A stretch of 37,665 nucleotides of DNA from Desulfobacterales bacterium (GCA_027027005.1 JALVMN010000181.1:1-37665), one strand, 5' to 3'. Shown: positions 27,869 to 37,665, counted from the first letter of the stretch. Numbers and translations are program-made. Notes: generated from the letters alone by a model not told the origin.

Positions 27869-29131
27869 CTAAGACCATGTGTTTTCCCACAGGTCCCAAA
27901 ATCCGGGAAATGATTTGGACACGCAGGCCTTGTGGGTGATCGTTGTCCCTCTTACCCTGAGGGCCACGATGGCCAGGCTCATGGCAATCCTGTGGTCATT
28001 GTGGGGATCAACCTCTGCAGGCCTCAAAGGGTGGTTTCCGTGGATGATCAGGCCGTCTGGTAACTCCTCCACGCGCGCGCCCAGCCTTTTCCACTCTGTT
28101 GCCACCGCCTCCAAGCGATCGCTTTCTTTGTATCTCAGATGAGCCACGTTTCCAATGACGGTGCTCCCTTCAGCAAAAAGAGCGATGGCAGCCAGTGTGG
28201 GCACCATATCTGGCATATGGCCCATGTCTGCTTCAATGCCTTGAAGCCTCACGCCACCTTGGACCATCACGCTGTCCCATTGCCTCACCACGGTGGCACC
28301 CATTTGTTCCAGGAGCTCCAGGAGACCGATGTCGCCTTGGCTTGTTTTGAAAGGATAAATGTTTCTGGTAATCAGCCCTCTTCCTGTGACCATAGCTCCT
28401 GCCCAAAAATATGATGCTGATGAGACATCCCCTTCGATACTAATCTCTTGAGCTGCATATCTCTGGCCCCCCGGCACCTTGAAATAGTTATAATCCTGGT
28501 GGTTCAACATTACGCCGAAGCGCTCCATGAGATCAATAGTCATTTGAACATAGGGCTGAGATATGGGTCCAGAGCTCACCCGTATCTCCACATCATCTTG
28601 AGCAAGGGGAGATATTATGAGAAGGGAAGAAAGAAACTGGCTGCTCTTTGATGCATCAATGGTCACTCTCCCTCCCCTTATACTGGAAGACGTGATGCTT
28701 AAAGGACAAAGACCTGGCTGATCCAGGTATTCTATTTCGGCCCCCCACTGTTCCAATGCTTGCACTAGATCGCTGATAGGCCTTTCTGTCAAGCGGGGCT
28801 CCCCTGTAAGGATCTGGGTTCCGCGGGCAAGGGCGCACACCCCCAGCAGAAGCCTTAGAGAGGTCCCGCTGTTACCCAGATAAATCTCTTTCTTGGAGGA
28901 TGGGGCGCCCAGATCCCTGCCCCTGCCTTGGAGGGTAAGGCTTCCGTCGGTATCGATGGAGAATCTGCATCCCAGCTGTTCCAGGCCCAAAAGGGTATAG
29001 TTTGTGTCCTCACAGGCCAAAAAGCCCTTGATACGGCTCTCACCTGGTGCAAGGGCAGCCAGGATGGCGGCCCTGTGACTAAGGCTTTTGGAGCCCGGGA
29101 TCATGACCTCTCTGATCCGACTCTTCGCCAT
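27869..29131 (-). CDS. aroA: 3-phosphoshikimate 1-carboxyvinyltransferase (EPSP synthase)
   Basis: IPGSKSLSHRAAILAALAPGES, LGNSGTSLRLLLG, RYKESDRLEAVATEW, DPHNDHRIAMSLAI. Confidence 0.97.
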   Translation of the reverse strand: MAKSRIREVMIPGSKSLSHRAAILAALAPGESRIKGFLACEDTNYTLLGLEQLGCRFSIDTDGSLTLQGRGRDLGAPSSKKEIYLGNSGTSLRLLLGVCALARGTQILTGEPRLTERPISDLVQALEQWGAEIEYLDQPGLCPLSITSSSIRGGRVTIDASKSSQFLSSLLIISPLAQDDVEIRVSSGPISQPYVQMTIDLMERFGVMLNHQDYNYFKVPGGQRYAAQEISIEGDVSSASYFWAGAMVTGRGLITRNIYPFKTSQGDIGLLELLEQMGATVVRQWDSVMVQGGVRLQGIEADMGHMPDMVPTLAAIALFAEGSTVIGNVAHLRYKESDRLEAVATEWKRLGARVEELPDGLIIHGNHPLRPAEVDPHNDHRIAMSLAIVALRVRGTTITHKACVSKSFPGFWDLWENTWS

Positions 29132-29951
29132 GGGGATCTTTTAAGGCCTCCCTTACAATCTTTTCCATCAGGGACAGGGGCGGGTCTGTCTGGGTCCATA
29201 ACCTGAGCTGCTCAGCGGCCTGGTGGACAAACATGGATACACCGTCGATCACATGGCATCCTAAGTGCTCAGCAAGTTTGAGGAGCTTTGTTTTGGGGGG
29301 ATTGTATATGACATCCATCACAGTAATGTTCGGTTTGAGCAAGCATGGGGTAACAGGACATTGATCAGAATACGGGGACATTCCCAGCGGAGTTGTTTGC
29401 ACAATGAGATCTATATTATTAATGCTGCCCATCACTTCCCATGGCACAAACCCACAAGACAATTCTTGAGCCAGTGCCTTACCCCTTGAGGCGGTTCGGT
29501 TCGTAATGATAATGATTGCCCCCCTTTCTTTTAGGGGAAAAGCGATGCTCCTTGCCGCTCCCCCTGCACCCACCACAAGGGTGCGAATCCCTTTGAGGCA
29601 GAGTGCCTGCTCCAAGGCCTTCATCGCCCCTGTTGCATCAGTATTGAAGCCCATTAGGCGGCCCCCGCGGTTTAAAACCGTGTTCACGGCCCCGATCTTT
29701 GCCGCAGTGGGGTCCAACTCATCAAGGTATTGGATTATGCTAGTCTTATGTGGCATGGTGACACTCATCCCCCCTATGGAAAGTGCCCTCATGGAAGCGA
29801 TTACACCTGCAAGATCCGTGGTCTCAAAGGCAAGGTAGACGGCATTTATTCCCATATGCTCAAAGCAGGCATTGTGCACAGCAGGGCTTAAGGAATGCCC
29901 TACAGGATCTCCAATAAGGCAATAGAGTTTTGTATATTGGTCAATCTTCAT
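29079..29951 (-). CDS. aroE: Shikimate dehydrogenase
   Basis: YCLIGDPVGHSLSPAVHNACFEHMG; GMSVTMPHKTSI; GAVNTVLNRGGRLMGFNTDATG; VVGAGGAARSIAF. Confidence 0.96.
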   Translation of the reverse strand: MKIDQYTKLYCLIGDPVGHSLSPAVHNACFEHMGINAVYLAFETTDLAGVIASMRALSIGGMSVTMPHKTSIIQYLDELDPTAAKIGAVNTVLNRGGRLMGFNTDATGAMKALEQALCLKGIRTLVVGAGGAARSIAFPLKERGAIIIITNRTASRGKALAQELSCGFVPWEVMGSINNIDLIVQTTPLGMSPYSDQCPVTPCLLKPNITVMDVIYNPPKTKLLKLAEHLGCHVIDGVSMFVHQAAEQLRLWTQTDPPLSLMEKIVREALKDPHGEESDQRGHDPGLQKP

Positions 29952-30651
29952 AACCCAGGAAGCTTAGAATCGCTTTCATCTCCCTCAGACTGATTTGGCC
30001 CGGGGCGGTCTCTCCGCCCTCACCATGACTCACAAAGCTCATGTGGCTCCCCAAAAGGTGTGAGAGTATTCGGCTTATCCTTCCCTTTGCTCCCATGCAG
30101 AAGGCCACAATCTGTGCTCCTCGTCTCTGGACCTCTGGAATGAGGGAGACCACAAGGAGGTTGTCTTCCCATGTCCTTGCGTATGGCACTATCTTGACAA
30201 TATCAGCCCCACAGGAATGTGCTCTCTCAAAAAGAGAATAGAGCTCTTTGTGCCCTGGGGTATAATTTAAAATGTGCACAGACACGATCGCCTTAGTCCT
30301 GCCTCTTGCCTCCATTATTCTTTGGCGTATATTTACTGGCAATGTGAGCTCAAGATCCACATAATCTGCACCCAGCTCAACAGCCTCCAAGAGATATTCC
30401 TCTATTTTTCTTGTCTCGTCGTGGCCTTTTCCTCCCTGCTCCGCTGATCTGTAAGTGACCAGCATGGGAACAGGGCTTGAGGCCAGTATTTCCTTGAGAT
30501 TCCACTCTTCCATAAAATCGAGCCTTATCTCAAAGATGTCAGCACTCTGCCCCAAGGACCTTATCTTTTGAACAGCCTCCCTTGTGTTTTGTGCTGCTAT
30601 TGAGATGCAAAACTTGGGCGATGGGCATTGGGATTGAGTGCTTTTATTCAT
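29941..30651 (-). CDS. aroD: 3-dehydroquinate dehydratase, type I
   Basis: DIFEIRLDFMEEW; VTYRSAEQGGKG; YVDLELTLP; DIVKIVPYA; FCMGAKGRISRILSHLLGSHMSFVS. Confidence 0.93.
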   Translation of the reverse strand: MNKSTQSQCPSPKFCISIAAQNTREAVQKIRSLGQSADIFEIRLDFMEEWNLKEILASSPVPMLVTYRSAEQGGKGHDETRKIEEYLLEAVELGADYVDLELTLPVNIRQRIMEARGRTKAIVSVHILNYTPGHKELYSLFERAHSCGADIVKIVPYARTWEDNLLVVSLIPEVQRRGAQIVAFCMGAKGRISRILSHLLGSHMSFVSHGEGGETAPGQISLREMKAILSFLGYED

Positions 30652-31640
30652 TTTTCAGTAATGGTCTCGTCAACCTTGTGCCCGAAGTGTCTACCAGCTT
30701 GATCCACATACCCAAGTACCTTGTCTCCAGGCCTAAGGGCAACTACGGAAATTGCCTCACCTTGGGCCCCCACAAGGCGAATAGTCTCGGCATTTTGAAC
30801 TATTATTCCAACAACCCCCTCAGGCCCTGCAGCCTTGATCAACAAGAGAGGCCTTCGTTCTATTTTCACTCTTCCAACCAACATCTCTGTGGCCTGTCCG
30901 TCAGAAGAAACCCCCAGCACGCGGTCGCCCGCCTCTATTTCTGAAAGATACTTGGTCTTTCCCCCGGGCAGCATTATGTATGCATGGACAGCCCCAGCAT
31001 TCACCCTAAACGGCCTTGGTGACACATATGGATTGACGAGGCTTTCGCTCTGTACGAGGAACAGGGCACTGCTGCTGTTACCCACCAAAAGGCCTTGGCC
31101 TTCCTCCATCAAGGTGCAGGTATCCACACATACCCTGTCTCCCATGATGGCGGGGGTAACGGACTCAATAGTGAATTCCACGAGCTTCACAGGATCATTG
31201 TGTGAAAGCAGACGGCCCACTATCTCCTTGACAATTTTGGGATCCTGATTTTCCACAACAACACCTGCCACACCCTTTTCAAGGATTTCAGAGGCCGTTC
31301 TGGCCTCTTGAGGGGTTTTAACCGGCACGAATATGTTGTTGGATTGTGCCACGAGGTTCTCCAAAGGAATGATGTTCCAGTCTGTGGTCTTTACAATAAC
31401 CTTTTTTGACTGTGCAAGTTGAACAATCTCTTGTTCGTCTTGGCTGGAGCTGACTTCCACTGTTGTCACATCCTCTTCCCATCTGATATCACCGTTTCGG
31501 GCAACAGTGGTGATGATGCCCAGCTCTCTTACCTCCTCCACCCTTTCCTCGGGCACCATTACAGCATGGGCACCTGCTTCAAGGGCTGTTGTGACAAGCT
31601 CCTTATCCCAAGGGTCTGCCTTTACCCAGATTTGCTTCAC
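30648..31640 (-). CDS. 3-dehydroquinate synthase II (AroB', archaeal-type)
   Basis: MKQIWVKADPWDKELVTTALEAGAHAVMVPEE; VCVDTCTLMEEGQGLLVGNSSSALFLVQSES; RPFRVNAGAVHAYIMLPGGKTKYLSEIEAGDRVL. Confidence 0.93.
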   Translation of the reverse strand: MKQIWVKADPWDKELVTTALEAGAHAVMVPEERVEEVRELGIITTVARNGDIRWEEDVTTVEVSSSQDEQEIVQLAQSKKVIVKTTDWNIIPLENLVAQSNNIFVPVKTPQEARTASEILEKGVAGVVVENQDPKIVKEIVGRLLSHNDPVKLVEFTIESVTPAIMGDRVCVDTCTLMEEGQGLLVGNSSSALFLVQSESLVNPYVSPRPFRVNAGAVHAYIMLPGGKTKYLSEIEAGDRVLGVSSDGQATEMLVGRVKIERRPLLLIKAAGPEGVVGIIVQNAETIRLVGAQGEAISVVALRPGDKVLGYVDQAGRHFGHKVDETITEK

Positions 31641-32431
31641 CTTATGACCTCCTCTTTGAAATATTTCTTAAGCGAAATGAACAGCTCCCGAAAGTCTTCA
31701 TCCTGCTTGGAAGAGATGATCTCTGAAATTTTTTTACAAGACTTTTCGTATAACTGGATATACTGCCTTGAAAAGGGGTTTTCCATGAGCAAAGGTCCAA
31801 AGAGCTCCGTAGTTTGGCCCAGGATGGATTCTATTCTCTTCAGGGTCTCCCTGAATGAATAGGTGGAAAGGGAAGATATCTCTTCATGGAGATGACCTGA
31901 CTCTGCAATAAAGTATGCAAGACTGAGCATGGAAAAATGATGCACCACTTGGATTACACCCATGATCTGGTCATGGAGCACCGCATCCACCAACACAGGC
32001 TTCAAGCCCGCTTTGGCGAGAAGATCAAGGATCCAGTCAAGCCCTTCCTGTCCCCTGCCGGGGCAGACCGCCACACTTAATCCCTCCTTTATATTTGACT
32101 TGGGTCCGAAAAGGGGATGGAGTCCTACCACCTGAGACCGGGAATGGCTGAGCATACTGGCCAGGGGGCTGGCCTTTAAAGATGTGAGATCCATCAGTAG
32201 TGCCTCTTCTCCAAGCAAAGGCCCTATTTGTTCTATAATGGGAAGAGTGGCTTTAATAGGGACCGAGAGGACCACTACATCACAGAGGGAGGCAATGTCT
32301 CTCGGACCCACTGGAGTGGTTCTGCCGCACCTGATCACTTCCAGGCCCAAGTCTTCAAAGAGGTCCCCAAACCAGGAACCCATCCCTCGAGTGCCGCCCA
32401 CAATTCCGATTCTGGGTCGCCCTAATCCCAT
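31637..32431 (-). CDS. tyrA: Prephenate dehydrogenase
   Basis: IGIVGGTRGMGSWFGDLFEDLGLEV; LMDLTSLKASPLASML; GLHPLFGP. Confidence 0.9.
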   Translation of the reverse strand: MGLGRPRIGIVGGTRGMGSWFGDLFEDLGLEVIRCGRTTPVGPRDIASLCDVVVLSVPIKATLPIIEQIGPLLGEEALLMDLTSLKASPLASMLSHSRSQVVGLHPLFGPKSNIKEGLSVAVCPGRGQEGLDWILDLLAKAGLKPVLVDAVLHDQIMGVIQVVHHFSMLSLAYFIAESGHLHEEISSLSTYSFRETLKRIESILGQTTELFGPLLMENPFSRQYIQLYEKSCKKISEIISSKQDEDFRELFISLKKYFKEEVIR

Positions 32432-33534
32432 GACTCATCCCCCTTTGGATAAGACCCCAAGCTCTTGAAATAAGAACACTGCTTCTCCATCTCCTCCAGG
32501 GCCATTGCCAAATGGGTATCAGTCTCGTGCCCTTCCATATCCACAAAGAAGAGGTACTCCCACTTTCTGGTTTTTGCAGGCCTTGATTCAATGCGCGTCA
32601 TGTTTATTCCATGGGAGGCAAGGGGCCCCAGGGCCCTGTGGAGTGCGCCTGCGCGGTGGGGAAGAGAAAAGATGATGGAAGTCTTGTCCCTCCCGCTTGG
32701 CCCCATCTCCTCCCTTCCAATTGCCAAGAAGCGGGTCACATTGTCAGGGCGGTCTTCAATGTCTTGCTCAAGGATGTGAAGGCCGTAAAGATGTGCAGAC
32801 AGTCGGCTTCCAATGGCAGCTGCTCCTCTCTGCTCAGCAGCCTTTTTTGCCGCCTCGGATGTGCTCTGTGTCTCCACCAGAGTGGTATCAGGCATGTTCT
32901 CCCTGAGCCATTCCTTGCACTGGGAAATAGCCATAGGATGGGAATAAATATTATGTATGTCACCCTTGCTCTGTTCCTTGCACAGCAGGTGGTGCCTTAT
33001 CCTGAGGAAAACCTCTCCTTGGATTTTCAATTCGTATTGGTAGAAAAGGTCCAGGATGGCGGCCACAGACCCCTGATAGGAATTCTCCACAGGCACCACA
33101 CCCATATGGCAAGCTCCCTTTTCAACCAATGAAAACACGGCTTCAGGGCTCGAGGCAGCAAAGAGATCTGAGTGTTCACCCAGGAAGAGGGAGGCAGCCT
33201 CATGAGAAAAACTTCCTTTAGGGCCGAGAAATGCCACCTTTGGGATCACCTGAAGAGAACGGCCAGCTGAGATTATCTCTCTGAATATGCTTTTTACGAC
33301 CGCAGGGGACAAGGGAGTGCCAGCCTGCGAAACCAGCCGTTCCATGATCCTAGCTTCCCGGGCCAAGTCCAAGGTCTGGAGCCCCAAGGCCTTTTTGTAT
33401 TCACCTATTTTGTGGGCGATCTCTTGCCTGTTGGCCAGCAAGGAAAGGATCTGGTCGTCTATCTGGTCAATATCTGCCCTCAGTCTTTCAAGCAGCCCTT
33501 CTTTGTGAGAGCATGGCTCCTGAGACATTTTCAA
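32422..33534 (-). CDS. pheA: Chorismate mutase / prephenate dehydratase (P-protein)
   Basis: Chorismate-mutase domain [34 protein letters not shown] domain [46 protein letters not shown]. Confidence 0.96.
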
Positions 33535-34336
33535 TCCCTTTTTCAGTCCTTAGATAATCCATTGCCTCCTTCACATCGGCCCCATGATGCACTATCATGG
33601 CAAGGGCTTTGACCATTCTGCGAGGATTAGGGTGCTGAAATACATTTCTGCCTATGGATGTCCCTGCTGCCCCTGCTTCCATGGCGCCCTTGACCATTTC
33701 AAGGACCGCACGGTCTGATTCCATCTTCGGACCTCCTGCAATTACCACCGGCACACTGCATCCTTCCACCACCTCTCTGAACGACTCTGGATCACCCGTG
33801 TATGAAACCTTCACTACGTCTGCACCCAGTTCAGCACCCAGCCGCGCTGCATGCTTGATGGCCTCAGGGTCATACTCATTCTTTATCTTTTCACCTCTCG
33901 GATAGATCATGGCAAGGAGCGGCATACCCCAGTAGTCAGCCCTTTCGGCTGTTCGGCCCAGGTCTGCAAGCATCTCTTTTTCCCTGCCGTTGCCAATATT
34001 GACGTGGACCGAGACACCATCGGCTCCAAGCCTTACTGCCTCTTCAACCGTACAGACAAGGGTCTTGGCATCGGGCTCAGGGGAAAGAGATGTGCTCCCA
34101 GAAAGATGCACGATCAGACCAAGATCAGGCCTGCTCTTTCTGTGTCCTTTTGCCACTATTCCCTTGTGCACAACCACTGCATTTGCCCCGCCGTCAGACA
34201 CCAAGGCCATGGCCTTTTTCATATCAGTGATCCCATAAATGGGGCCGGCACTGAGCCCATGGTCCATCGGGACAATTACCACCTTGCCAGTGTTCTTGTT
34301 TATAATCCTCTGAATCCTTATCTCTTTGCCTGCCAT
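33488..34336 (-). CDS. 2-amino-3,7-dideoxy-D-threo-hept-6-ulosonate synthase (ADHS/AroA', class I aldolase family)
   Basis: [80 protein letters not shown] before the ATG at 34336. Confidence 0.9.
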
Positions 34337-34407: not shown

Positions 34408-34451
34408 AAAAAAGGCCGCGAGCATTATGTGACTTTGCCCGTGGCCTTTTT
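34408..34451 (-). terminator. Attenuator B terminator hairpin (regions 3:4) upstream of aroA'
   Basis: Minus strand: AAAAAGGCCACGGGC (34451-34437) pairs with GCTCGCGGCCTTTTT(T) (34423-34408); one A.C mismatch and one G.U in 15 positions; U-tract. Confidence 0.8.
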
Positions 34452-34464
34452 GGATACGATTACA

Positions 34465-34530
34465 TCACAAGGCCATGGGCGGGGCCCTCCACCAAAAATA
34501 ATAAGCAGTCCTTGTTTCATGGGTTTCCAT
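34465..34530 (-). CDS. Leader peptide B, METHETRTAYYFWWRAPPMAL (Tyr-Tyr-Phe-Trp-Trp), for the aro operon
   Basis: 21-codon ORF 20 nt downstream of the aroC stop; SD GGAG (34542-34539) with 8-nt spacing; stop adjoins an antiterminator arm. Confidence 0.82.
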   Translation of the reverse strand: METHETRTAYYFWWRAPPMAL

Positions 34531-34550
34531 AAAAAATACTCCAGCCATTT

Positions 34551-35639
34551 TCACCTTACCCGTTCAACAAACCTGCCGCCGGCGGCAGACAGGTTGGTCA
34601 TCTGCCGCAAGTAATGATCTGCAAGCACTATTTTCACCATTGCCTCTATGACGGCCAGTGCCCTGGGCAAGGGGCATATGTCATGCCTACCGGAAAGTCT
34701 TATCCTTGCGGGCCTCCCCTCCCTGTCTATGGTCTCCTGTTCCATCCTGATGGAAGGGATGGGCTTGAGCGCCACCCTTGCAATTATCCGGTCTCCGTTT
34801 GAGATGCCAGCAAGGATCCCCCCTGCATGATTGCTCTTGAACCCCTCAGGGGTAATAGGATCATTGTTTTCGGAGCCTTTGAGCCTGGCAGCACCGAATC
34901 CTGCCCCGATTTCCACACCCTTGACCGTGCCGATGGAAAAGATTGCCTTTGCAAGATCAGCATCCAACTTGTCAAACACAGGTTCACCAAGACCCGGGGG
35001 GCATCCTGTCACAATGACCTCTGCCACCCCGCCAACGGAGTCCCCACGGGCTGCTGCATCCTTAAGGACCTGTTGGATCCTGTTGGATGCTCGGGGGTCA
35101 GGGCAGTAAAAAGGACTCTGCTCCAGGGTGTCCCACTTGAATTGCATTGCCCGTACACCGCCGATCTCCAGGGTGTATGCCTTAACCTTTACGCCTATGG
35201 GGTCCAATATCTTGCCGGCCACCACCCCGGCAGCCACCCTTGCAGCGGTCTCCCGGGCCGAATACCTGCCCCCGCCCCTGAAGTCAACGTGCTGGTATTT
35301 TTTGAAAAAGGTATAGTCACCGTGACCGGGACGAAACAGCTTCCTCAAGATCTCATAGGCTCGGCTGTCGGTGTCTTGGTTGGCAATCATTAGCATGATG
35401 GGTGCTCCAGTGGTTAATCCTTCAAACACACCAGAAACTATCTCAACCTCATCCGTTTCTCTCCTAGAGGTGTCAGAGGAACGCTCCTTTGATCTTCGTC
35501 TTTCCATGGCCGCAACAAAATCGGCTGCACTGAGTTCAATGCCAGGAGGACAACCCTCCACCACTGCGCCCATGGCAGGACCATGTGATTCTCCAAAGGT
35601 GGTCACCCTGAAGGCCCGACCGATACAATTACCTCCCAT
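34551..35639 (-). CDS. aroC: Chorismate synthase
   Basis: FRVTTFGESHGPAMGAVVEGCPPG; GRYSARETAARVAAGVVA; GRHDICPLPRALAVIEAM. Confidence 0.97.
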   Translation of the reverse strand: MGGNCIGRAFRVTTFGESHGPAMGAVVEGCPPGIELSAADFVAAMERRRSKERSSDTSRRETDEVEIVSGVFEGLTTGAPIMLMIANQDTDSRAYEILRKLFRPGHGDYTFFKKYQHVDFRGGGRYSARETAARVAAGVVAGKILDPIGVKVKAYTLEIGGVRAMQFKWDTLEQSPFYCPDPRASNRIQQVLKDAAARGDSVGGVAEVIVTGCPPGLGEPVFDKLDADLAKAIFSIGTVKGVEIGAGFGAARLKGSENNDPITPEGFKSNHAGGILAGISNGDRIIARVALKPIPSIRMEQETIDREGRPARIRLSGRHDICPLPRALAVIEAMVKIVLADHYLRQMTNLSAAGGRFVERVR

Positions 35640-36174
35640 GGCTGAGTCCTTTTCTAGAGAAGGTATAAAATTCTTTTTCTATTGCCTCACATACCTGGTC
35701 AATGTGGCTTGTGGTGGTGTCAAGGACAAGGTCAGCAGCCATCTCATAGAGCGGTTCCCTTTCTTTGAGCACCTGTTCGATCTCGTCGACGGAGTTGTCG
35801 GCCAGAAGAGGCGGCCTTTTTTTCCCTGCTGCCTCATGGTAGGCCATTCTTTCCTTGATTATATTGGGGGAGGCCTTTAGCCACACGATAAATCCATTCT
35901 TTCTCAATCGTTCCATGTTCTGCTCCTTCAGGACCACGCCCCCGCCCGTGGCGATTATCAGATTCTCTTGCCCTGAGACCTTGGTTACAACTTCTTGTTC
36001 CATTGCCCTAAATCTTGGCCACCCGAGCCTGGTGACGATTTCCTGGATGCTCATCCCGGCTTGTCTTTCCACCAGTGAGTCGGTGTCCACAAACTCGAAG
36101 TTCAGCTTATTTGCCAGTGCCATACCCACCGAGCTCTTTCCGCTGCATCTATATCCTACGAGCACGATATTCAT
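35629..36174 (-). CDS. aroK: Shikimate kinase
   Basis: MNIVLVGYRCSGKSSVGMALANKLNFEFVDTDSLVERQAGMSIQEIV; IATGGGVVL. The track ORF start at 36444 runs through the attenuator; start at 36174 preferred. Confidence 0.93.
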   Translation of the reverse strand: MNIVLVGYRCSGKSSVGMALANKLNFEFVDTDSLVERQAGMSIQEIVTRLGWPRFRAMEQEVVTKVSGQENLIIATGGGVVLKEQNMERLRKNGFIVWLKASPNIIKERMAYHEAAGKKRPPLLADNSVDEIEQVLKEREPLYEMAADLVLDTTTSHIDQVCEAIEKEFYTFSRKGLSHGR

Positions 36175-36197
36175 TCTGTTGGACTTCTTCGTGAAAC

Positions 36198-36240
36198 AAA
36201 AAAGGCCGTGGGCTCTATCAGTCTGCCCACGGCCTTTTTT
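36198..36240 (-). terminator. Attenuator A terminator hairpin (regions 3:4) upstream of aroK
   Basis: Minus strand: AAAAAAGGCCGTGGGC / GCCCACGGCCTTTTTT, 16-bp perfect stem, 11-nt loop. Confidence 0.88.
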
Positions 36241-36257
36241 GCTCCAAAAATTACAAA

Positions 36258-36335
36258 TCAATCCATGGGCAGACCTCCAGCACCCCAAAAATAGGAGAAG
36301 TAATGAGGATTCTGCCAGGATTGATTGAAGGACAT
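36258..36335 (-). CDS. Leader peptide A, MSFNQSWQNPHYFSYFWGAGGLPMD (Tyr-Phe-Ser-Tyr-Phe-Trp), for aroK-aroC
   Basis: 25-codon ORF about 36 nt downstream of a predicted start site; aromatic codon run; stop adjoins the antiterminator arm. Confidence 0.82.
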   Translation of the reverse strand: MSFNQSWQNPHYFSYFWGAGGLPMD

Positions 36336-36378
36336 AAGTGTTTGACCCTCTTTCTGAAACTATATCAGTGAAGACTGA

Positions 36379-36407
36379 TTGATAGACCAGTAACATCCCT
36401 TTGTCAA
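36379..36407 (-). promoter_or_regulatory. Sigma70-type promoter for leader A/aroK operon
   Basis: Minus strand TTGACA (36407-36402), 17-bp spacer, TATCAA (36384-36379). Confidence 0.7.
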
Positions 36408-36444
36408 GAAAAATTTTGCAGGTCCACAAAATTCTTCTTGACAA
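36401..36444. repeat. Inverted repeat spanning both divergent -35 boxes (candidate operator)
   Basis: TTGTCAAGAAAAATTTTG (36401-36418) versus CAAAATTCTTCTTGACAA (36427-36444): 17/18 arm identity, 8-bp centre. Confidence 0.7.
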
Positions 36445-36466
36445 TTTTGATCTGGCCTTTCATCTT
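36438..36466 (+). promoter_or_regulatory. Candidate promoter for trpL-trpE
   Basis: TTGACA at 36438-36443 with 17-bp spacer to a weak -10 CATCTT (36461-36466); TCTTAT (36463-36468) is an alternative. Confidence 0.5.
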
Positions 36467-36495
36467 ATGCATTCAGATTCTTGTGGGAGATAGTT

Positions 36496-36567
36496 ATGAA
36501 GCATAAAATATCAAATTGCTGGTTGTGGTGGCGTGGCCTCGGAAGAGAGGTGATCCCACCACTGTGA
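36496..36567 (+). CDS. trpL: Leader peptide C, MKHKISNCWLWWRGLGREVIPPL, trp operon leader
   Basis: 23-codon ORF; SD GGGAGA 5 nt before ATG; TGG TTG TGG TGG run; regions 1:2, 2:3 and 3:4 all found by complementarity. Confidence 0.9.
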   Translation: MKHKISNCWLWWRGLGREVIPPL

Positions 36568-36585
36568 TCTATTATAATTGTTAAG

Positions 36586-36623
36586 AAACCGTGGGGTCAC
36601 CTCGGTGGCCCCACGGTTTTTTT
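36586..36623 (+). terminator. Attenuator C terminator hairpin 1 (regions 3:4)
   Basis: AAACCGTGGGGTCAC-CTCG-GTGGCCCCACGGTTT, 15 bp with one G.U, followed by T-tract. Confidence 0.9.
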
Positions 36624-36643
36624 GTTTTTACTGTTTCCGCAAT

Positions 36644-36682
36644 AAAAGGCCGTGGGGCCATGATGAGCCCCACGGCCTTTTT
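36644..36682 (+). terminator. Second tandem terminator hairpin (regions 5:6) before trpE
   Basis: AAAAGGCCGTGGGGC (36644-36658) / GCCCCACGGCCTTTT (36667-36681), 15-bp perfect stem, 8-nt loop, T-tract. Confidence 0.85.
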
Positions 36683-36701: not shown

Positions 36702-37665
36702 ATGAATGCAATCCCAACTATTTCAGGATTCAAGGCCCTTGCCGGGCCGGGCAGGATTATTCCGGTTTGGGCCGAGTTTCTCGCAGACACCGTGACACCG
36801 GTATCAGCCTATTTGAAGCTGAGGAGCAATTTTGGACCTCCCTGCTTCCTGCTGGAGAGTGCCGAGTTTGGAAAGACATGGGGAAGGTATTCTTTTCTGG
36901 GCCTTGATCCTTTCCTTTCGGTCTTCATCTACCCTGACAGGGTAGAGATTCTCCAAAATTCCGCCAGAAGGAAAGAGCCAGCCTCGAATCCCATTGAAGC
37001 CCTTAGAACTCTCGCGAGCAAAATACGCTTTGTAGATACCTCACTAAGCTTTCCATTCCAGGGGGGGCTGGTGGGATTCCTGAACTATGATGTGGTGCGA
37101 AAGTGGGAGCCTCTTCCAGGCCTCCGACCTTATAAGCAGGGGATGCCGGAAGGGATATTCACGGCCCCTCGGGTAGTGGTGGTCTTCGATCACCTCACCC
37201 ACAAGGTAACCATTGTTTCTCAAATCCACCTTAATGATACCCATGACCTTGATGGGGAGTATTGGAGAGGGGTTGAGACCATTGGGGGTGTAGCAGAGAT
37301 CTTGGAAAGACCGGGCCCATTGGGCAAAGCCGCGAGCATTGAGGTGTCTCCTTTTGTCCCGAGTATGGAAAAGGCTGGGTTTGAAGAGATTGTGCATCAA
37401 GCCAAGAGGCAGATAGAGGCTGGCGAAGTGATTCAAGTGGTCCTGTCCCAGAGGTTCAGCGCCAAGGCGAGGGGTGATGCCTTTGGCCTGTATCGAAGTC
37501 TGAGGGGCCTTAATCCCTCGCCTTACATGTTCTACCTGGATTTTGAAGATATCCAGCTGGTAGGGGCCTCGCCAGAGGTGCTGGTGCGATGCCGTGGCTC
37601 TTCAATCAGGCTCCGTCCCATTGCCGGGACCAGGCCGAGGGGAGGGAGTGAACAAGAAGATAAGT
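36702..37665 (+). CDS. trpE: Anthranilate synthase component I, partial (runs off the window)
   Basis: MNAIPTISGFKALAGPGRIIPVWAEFL...PCFLLESAEFGKTWGRYSFLG...EVIQVVLSQRFSA...PSPYMFYLDF...RPIAGTRPRGGSEQEDK; open to the window end, so absent from the ORF track. Confidence 0.95.
   Translation, partial: MNAIPTISGFKALAGPGRIIPVWAEFLADTVTPVSAYLKLRSNFGPPCFLLESAEFGKTWGRYSFLGLDPFLSVFIYPDRVEILQNSARRKEPASNPIEALRTLASKIRFVDTSLSFPFQGGLVGFLNYDVVRKWEPLPGLRPYKQGMPEGIFTAPRVVVVFDHLTHKVTIVSQIHLNDTHDLDGEYWRGVETIGGVAEILERPGPLGKAASIEVSPFVPSMEKAGFEEIVHQAKRQIEAGEVIQVVLSQRFSAKARGDAFGLYRSLRGLNPSPYMFYLDFEDIQLVGASPEVLVRCRGSSIRLRPIAGTRPRGGSEQEDK

Follow-up and report, generated by a model that had tools for sequence, protein, structure and literature searches.

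In the enterobacterial trpL and pheL systems, a short leader ORF that contains the regulatory codons is combined with the alternative RNA pairings 1:2, 2:3 and 3:4, and an intrinsic terminator is placed before the biosynthetic operon. The his attenuator of Salmonella and Escherichia coli is the nearest known six-segment design, in which the stems A:B, C:D and E:F alternate with B:C and D:E, yet only its last stem terminates. The tandem attenuators of Salmonella mgtCBR are reported to involve two short ORFs (PMC3641672).

An attenuator at an operon of the kind considered here has also been predicted. Song et al. (2005, Table 7; PMC1173090) list a putative attenuator before the aroA'-aroB'-...-trp supraoperon of Desulfovibrio vulgaris, in an entry drawn from a database of putative attenuators and in a paper whose text does not use the word “leader”. 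An earlier note on the present locus, which knew of no description of such a network for a DKFP-type aromatic operon, needs correction on this point, since a Desulfovibrio aroA' attenuator had already been predicted in 2005 (PMC1173090). The open-licence literature that was searched on leader peptides in Deltaproteobacteria, or on tandem terminators in leader attenuators, does not describe the system, and the two-terminator chain discussed below is apparently unreported. When the whole of the DNA was scanned against all Rfam families with cmscan, no match to a Trp or Phe leader was obtained at E values up to 1.

Anatomy of the three leaders

The DNA analysed, referred to as the window, is the full 37,665-nt stretch GCA_027027005.1 JALVMN010000181.1:1-37665 from a Desulfobacterales bacterium. 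The minus strand carries aroK-aroC as well as a seven-gene operon that runs from aroA' to aroA, and the plus strand carries trpE, divergent from aroK; gene identities were checked against NCBIfam (Table 1).

Table 1. Genes and leader elements of the window, with coordinates counted from its first nucleotide
Feature	Position	Strand	Remarks
trpE (anthranilate synthase component I)	36702..37665	+	TIGR00564 match; contig end cuts gene
trpE terminator T2 (regions 5 and 6)	36644..36681	+	5' arm complementary to T1 3' arm
trpE terminator T1 (regions 3 and 4)	36583..36622	+	U-tract to ~36625; covariation support
trpE leader ORF MKHKISNCWLWWRGLGREVIPPL*	36496..36567	+	WLWW; three Trp codons in four
aroK leader ORF MSFNQSWQNPHYFSYFWGAGGLPMD*	36258..36335	-	mixed Tyr/Phe/Trp, core HYFSYFW
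aroK terminator (regions 3 and 4)	36198..36240	-	U-tailed hairpin; covariation support
aroK, shikimate kinase	35629..36171	-	family-level match, under curated cut-offs
aroC, chorismate synthase	34551..35639	-	NCBIfam check
aroA' leader ORF METHETRTAYYFWWRAPPMAL*	34465..34530	-	mixed Tyr/Phe/Trp, core YYFWW
aroA' terminator (regions 3 and 4)	34409..34451	-	U-tailed hairpin
aroA', 2-amino-3,7-dideoxy-D-threo-hept-6-ulosonate synthase (ADH synthase)	33491..34336	-	TIGR01949; first gene of operon
Remaining operon genes	27869..33534	-	chorismate mutase/prephenate dehydratase, prephenate dehydrogenase, 3-dehydroquinate synthase II, aroD, aroE, aroA

Each of the three leaders has the anatomy of an attenuator, comprising a short ORF rich in the codons of the end products, an intrinsic terminator before the genes, and a 2:3 antiterminator that is mutually exclusive with the 3:4 terminator. 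The last part of each leader ORF, at or close to its stop codon, contains region 2, which is complementary to the terminator's 5' arm. This agrees with the earlier note, which had proposed three such aromatic leaders before aroK-aroC, the aroA' to aroA operon and trpE, all of which fall within 34408-36682. At trpE, where a single terminator had been described, T1 stands but T2 had been overlooked; the two are separated by 16-21 nt, the exact value varying with the start chosen for the second stem. The ATG start of the aroA' leader is nested in a longer in-frame ORF that has a possible GTG start at 34554. When the leaders were folded, as had been recommended, the result set two of them apart from shuffled sequences (trpE, z -6.8, or -8.9 with both terminators; aroK, z -6.0), but the window aroA' leader, whose helices contain mismatches, was unremarkable (z -1.4).

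The divergent aroK and trpE leaders are separated by an inverted repeat, TTGTCAAGAA...TTCTTGACAA, at 36398-36444, in which two back-to-back -35-like boxes can be seen by eye. A sigma-70 scan gave no promoter where one would be expected for the aroK leader or the trpE leader; the arrangement TTGACA-N17-TATCAA on the minus strand at 36407-36379 was found by eye and is absent from the output of that scan. Another contig of the same genome, C401 (L053), begins within a trpE that is 92% identical to that of the window and continues with trpG- and trpD-like genes. The genome is a MAG with a contamination of 8.9%, and this second trpE probably belongs to a second strain inside it.

Conservation and covariation in relatives

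The earlier note had called for a comparison of the leaders and their complementary arms in related genomes, and this comparison came out in its favour: codons, position and alternative pairings are kept over many genera, with compensatory changes. Among the relative contigs, with the window counted, an aromatic leader, a terminator and 2:3 complementarity occur together at 13 of 14 aroK starts, and at the fourteenth (L036) the leader is lost because only 83 nt of contig precede the gene. The corresponding figure for aroK in the wider set is 16/36, under stricter codon criteria; that set includes loci present more than once and some upstream regions that are cut short. For aroA', a leader and terminator are present at 59/97 starts of the wider set, in which some loci are duplicated, and records titled Desulfonema, Desulfosudis, Desulfocicer and Desulfobacca are among those with the leader; where aroA' lies immediately downstream of aroC, its own leader is usually absent. 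Of the 34 trpE upstream regions of the order, 30 contain a terminator and a leader rich in Trp codons, in most cases NWWW. Other genes of the pathway rarely or never have a leader in the relatives: in the wider set the counts are 0/220 starts for aroA, aroD, aroE, tyrA and pheA together, 2/45 for aroC, with one case appearing genuine, and 3/90 for the gene of DHQ synthase II.

Covariation was evaluated separately for the two mutually exclusive sets of pairings. In the trpE alignment the terminating set 1:2+3:4+5:6 is paired in 95.3% of cells, with 32 double-change cells compared to 10.1 in shuffles (0/500 reach this number), and the alternative set 2:3+4:5 is paired in 89.4% of cells, with 10 double-change cells compared to 4.4 (1/500). 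For aroK, 1:2+3:4 is paired in 82.7% of cells (23 double-change cells against 8.7 in shuffles, 0/500) and 2:3 in 90.3% (5 against 1.8, 0/500). Comparison of each genome's own arms with arms swapped in from other genomes favours the own arms at trpE for 2:3 (0/5000) and for 4:5 (53/5000); the control pairing 2:5 has no own-genome advantage, and the 3:6 control is intermediate rather than clean (202/5000). In the aroA' set, own arms are favoured for 2:3 (p=0.001) and for 4:5 (0/5000), and neither control, 2:5 or 3:6, favours them. These probabilities come from shuffle and swap tests that correct for relatedness only incompletely. The 2:3 energy also played a part in the choice of the aroK and aroA' sets; 4:5 at no point did. 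In the aligned sequences 1:2, 2:3, 3:4 and 5:6 covary; the support for 4:5 is more modest, its column support at trpE coming mainly from one variable pair that changes on both sides. The GGAGG in region 2 resembles a Shine-Dalgarno sequence, but a second start site there was rejected, since the alignments contain no consistent downstream start codon.

Proposed ribosome decision and terminator chain

The three leaders are very probably ribosome-mediated transcription attenuators that belong to one RNA family. Attenuation at all three sites, as the earlier note had proposed, is supported because the leader codons, their position and the alternative pairings are conserved, with compensatory changes, across genera. 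With an ample supply of charged aromatic tRNAs, the ribosome would reach the leader stop codon and cover region 2, so that 3:4 would form and transcription would end before the genes; a shortage of Phe, Tyr or Trp would stall it at the aromatic codons, 2:3 would pair, no terminator would form and the genes would be transcribed. The kinetics of this process, the response to amino acids and the effect on expression are predicted from the sequences. The aroK and aroA' leaders would sense a mixture of Phe, Tyr and Trp and the trpE leader Trp only, and this division between the common pathway and trpE, already drawn in the earlier note, holds in the relatives examined. The graded amino-acid sensing proposed there is putative.

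Among the trpE leaders of the order, 24/34 have a second terminator within 45 nt, and a second terminator is also present in 31/57 aroA' leaders. The aroA' leader of Desulfonema magnum (L070), a cultured relative, is of this two-terminator type. In the trpE leader and in many Desulfobacterales aroA' leaders, the formation of 2:3 would free region 4 to pair with region 5, which would disarm T2, so that a single decision by the ribosome would arm or disarm both terminators through a chain of pairings. With region 2 free and the RNA made through region 5, the window trpE leader folds into 2:3 plus 4:5 (-54.5 kcal/mol); the same combination is the minimum in 17/20 trpE and 30/31 aroA' two-terminator leaders when region 2 is free and region 6 is not yet made. 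At equilibrium in the full-length leader, 3:4 plus 5:6 is the minimum in nearly all cases, and the antitermination choice must therefore be kinetic, as it is in classical attenuation. Folding and covariation together suggest that T2 is coupled to the decision of the ribosome.

It is also conceivable, though unlikely, that T2 at trpE is an independent fail-safe or the leftover of a duplication, not coupled to the ribosome through 4:5. T1 and T2 have a common core, duplication alone would give some 4:5 complementarity, and the trpE data for 4:5 are modest, with a swap result of 53/5000 beside 202/5000 for the 3:6 control and one pair changed on both sides. A mere copy of T1, however, predicts that 3:6 should be as good as 4:5, and in the aroA' set the mean energy of 3:6 is -10.3 kcal/mol (own versus swapped arms, p 0.96) against -16.7 kcal/mol for 4:5 (0/5000); an origin of the 4:5 complementarity purely from duplication is disfavoured by this control, less clearly at trpE. 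A strong uncoupled terminator directly before trpE would, in addition, block trpE even with T1 disarmed. The shared core GGCCGTGGG is ruled out as the general terminator of the genome, because no site other than the aroK terminator and T2 has the exact pattern, and this too counts against an uncoupled T2.

The alternative that the leaders are ligand-binding riboswitches, or are bound by a TRAP-like or new regulatory protein, with the short ORFs incidental, is very improbable. In its favour, the hairpins are strong and conserved, and a GGAGGT-like segment is conserved in region 2. Against this, no Rfam family matches at its gathering score, and codon identity tracks the pathway step, with Trp only at trpE and trpD and mixed codons elsewhere, a pattern that codon reading explains directly. 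Nor do the 61 genomes searched contain TRAP (PF02081) or a T-box riboswitch (RF00230), and TrpR (PF01371) is above its cut-off in none of them, with one sub-threshold match in G047. The earlier note had supposed that attenuators replace TyrR- and TrpR-type control. The TrpR half of that proposal is consistent with these counts; for TyrR, the domain model PF18024, whose best score in the window's own genome is 35 bits, also matches generic NtrC-type activators. A published survey found TrpR and TyrR to be conserved in gammaproteobacteria and absent from the other proteobacterial classes that it covered (PMC5343134).

The frequency with which the same criteria are satisfied by chance was estimated by census. 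On both strands of the window, the ATG-start ORFs that match are the three leaders and one weak match antisense to the aroA' leader (2:3 energy -9.5 kcal/mol), and the other matches are three TTG-start ORFs. In the relative G058, of which 2.13 of 2.53 Mb were covered, there are four ATG-start F/Y/W matches, two of which precede plausible targets, aroK and an ABC importer. Such chance matches, and the richness of U-rich intergenic RNA in Phe and Tyr codons, lend a little colour to the notion of accidental aromatic ORFs beside ordinary intergenic terminators, but it is scarcely credible: the leaders are conserved in many genera, the mutually exclusive pairings covary, and none of the 220 control starts in the same operons has a leader.

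A shared scaffold and its further targets

Support for ribosome-mediated attenuation also comes from leaders that were found through RNA structure instead of codons. A covariance model, R1, was built from 14 aroK leaders and starts downstream of the main aromatic run, so that the presence of a leader at an R1 locus is a check independent of the codons. R1 finds the aroA' leader of the window (E 7.8e-5) and its trpE leader (E 1.8e-4), and a trpE covariance model reciprocally finds aroK leaders. An aromatic leader is present at 39/41 inspected R1 loci and at 27/28 of the loci that were not used in training. The leaders are likely to share a common descent, part of the score being terminator core. 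At the level of the phylum, 89/395 sampled genomes match at E 1e-4, and the weaker of these matches may be plain terminators.

In the relatives, R1 matches away from aroK precede trpD and DAHP synthase with aroB. In the genome to which the window belongs, R1 also found a fourth aromatic attenuator (G000:C287:2265-2336; L305:366-437), whose leader ends FLSEVFFYFYADPCPWQGGG and which precedes a CoA-transferase of the acetyl-CoA hydrolase/transferase family. Phe/Tyr-rich attenuators lie before an acyl-CoA synthetase (acyl-CoA ligase) in the relative locus L306, and before an MBL-fold hydrolase in L307-L310, L312, L313, L317, L318 and L321; the hydrolase is followed in L313 by a BadF/BcrA-type ATPase and a 2-hydroxyglutaryl-CoA-dehydratase-like gene, and in L318 by a 3-hydroxyacyl-CoA dehydrogenase/enoyl-CoA hydratase. 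The gene content of the hydrolase and ligase loci suggests a candidate route to aromatic amino acids from aryl acids. Aromatic attenuators in L319, L320 and L323 precede a class I/II aminotransferase, a match to NF005305 in L319, which is a candidate aromatic aminotransferase. An attenuator of the aroK type on the same scaffold, with the leader ...RFTYFF..., occurs at G058:C1:320322 (L184, minus strand), and the genes behind it read as a LivK-type substrate-binding protein and an ABC ATPase, for which a role as an aromatic amino acid importer is predicted. At G058:C1:594665 (plus strand) the leader MDLFYLNVVLVVAVNSRGGG and a terminator precede a gene that reads as ilvB, the arrangement of a branched-chain attenuator.

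The broader reading, which is favoured but by no means secure, is that a family of attenuators in the Desulfobacterota, in which one scaffold is re-specified by its codons, would take the place of protein regulators as the principal transcriptional control on the supply of aromatic amino acids. Its reach would cover biosynthesis, transamination, uptake and possibly the activation of aryl acids to CoA thioesters, and it would use a chained two-terminator switch. If this reading is correct, codon-reading attenuation would no longer be confined to single operons but would serve a whole family of amino acids as a network spanning the lineage, in a phylum whose regulation has received little study and on the alternative (ADH/DKFP) route to dehydroquinate. 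As a design for low leakage, the chained terminators would be testable. The leaders could also be used as function labels, predicting a role in aromatic amino acid supply for the broadly annotated MBL-fold hydrolase, CoA-transferase, acyl-CoA ligase and LivK-type importer.

The earlier note was right to regard the basic architecture as textbook attenuation, but it lacked the second trpE terminator, the common scaffold and the wider range of target genes. The leader ORF, the alternative pairings and the intrinsic terminator are common to these leaders and to trpL and pheL. Unlike those systems, the present one has mixed Phe/Tyr/Trp leaders at genes of the common pathway, repeats one scaffold in related copies and adds a second terminator that appears to be coupled; it has no Rfam match, and TrpR is above its cut-off in none of the genomes searched. 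With the his attenuator the trpE leader and many aroA' leaders share, as a potential of their sequences accompanied by covariation, the six-segment alternation of 1:2, 3:4 and 5:6 with 2:3 and 4:5; in contrast to his, both 3:4 (T1) and 5:6 (T2) are U-tailed terminators. The D. vulgaris entry (PMC1173090) concerns the same first gene, aroA', in another member of the former Deltaproteobacteria, and attenuation is predicted there too, but the codons, the scaffold and a second terminator are not discussed in it. The mgtCBR leader (PMC3641672) resembles the two-terminator leaders in having more than one attenuation element and in its use of short ORFs, but where it is reported to have two such ORFs, a single ORF here appears to control two terminators through a chain of pairings.
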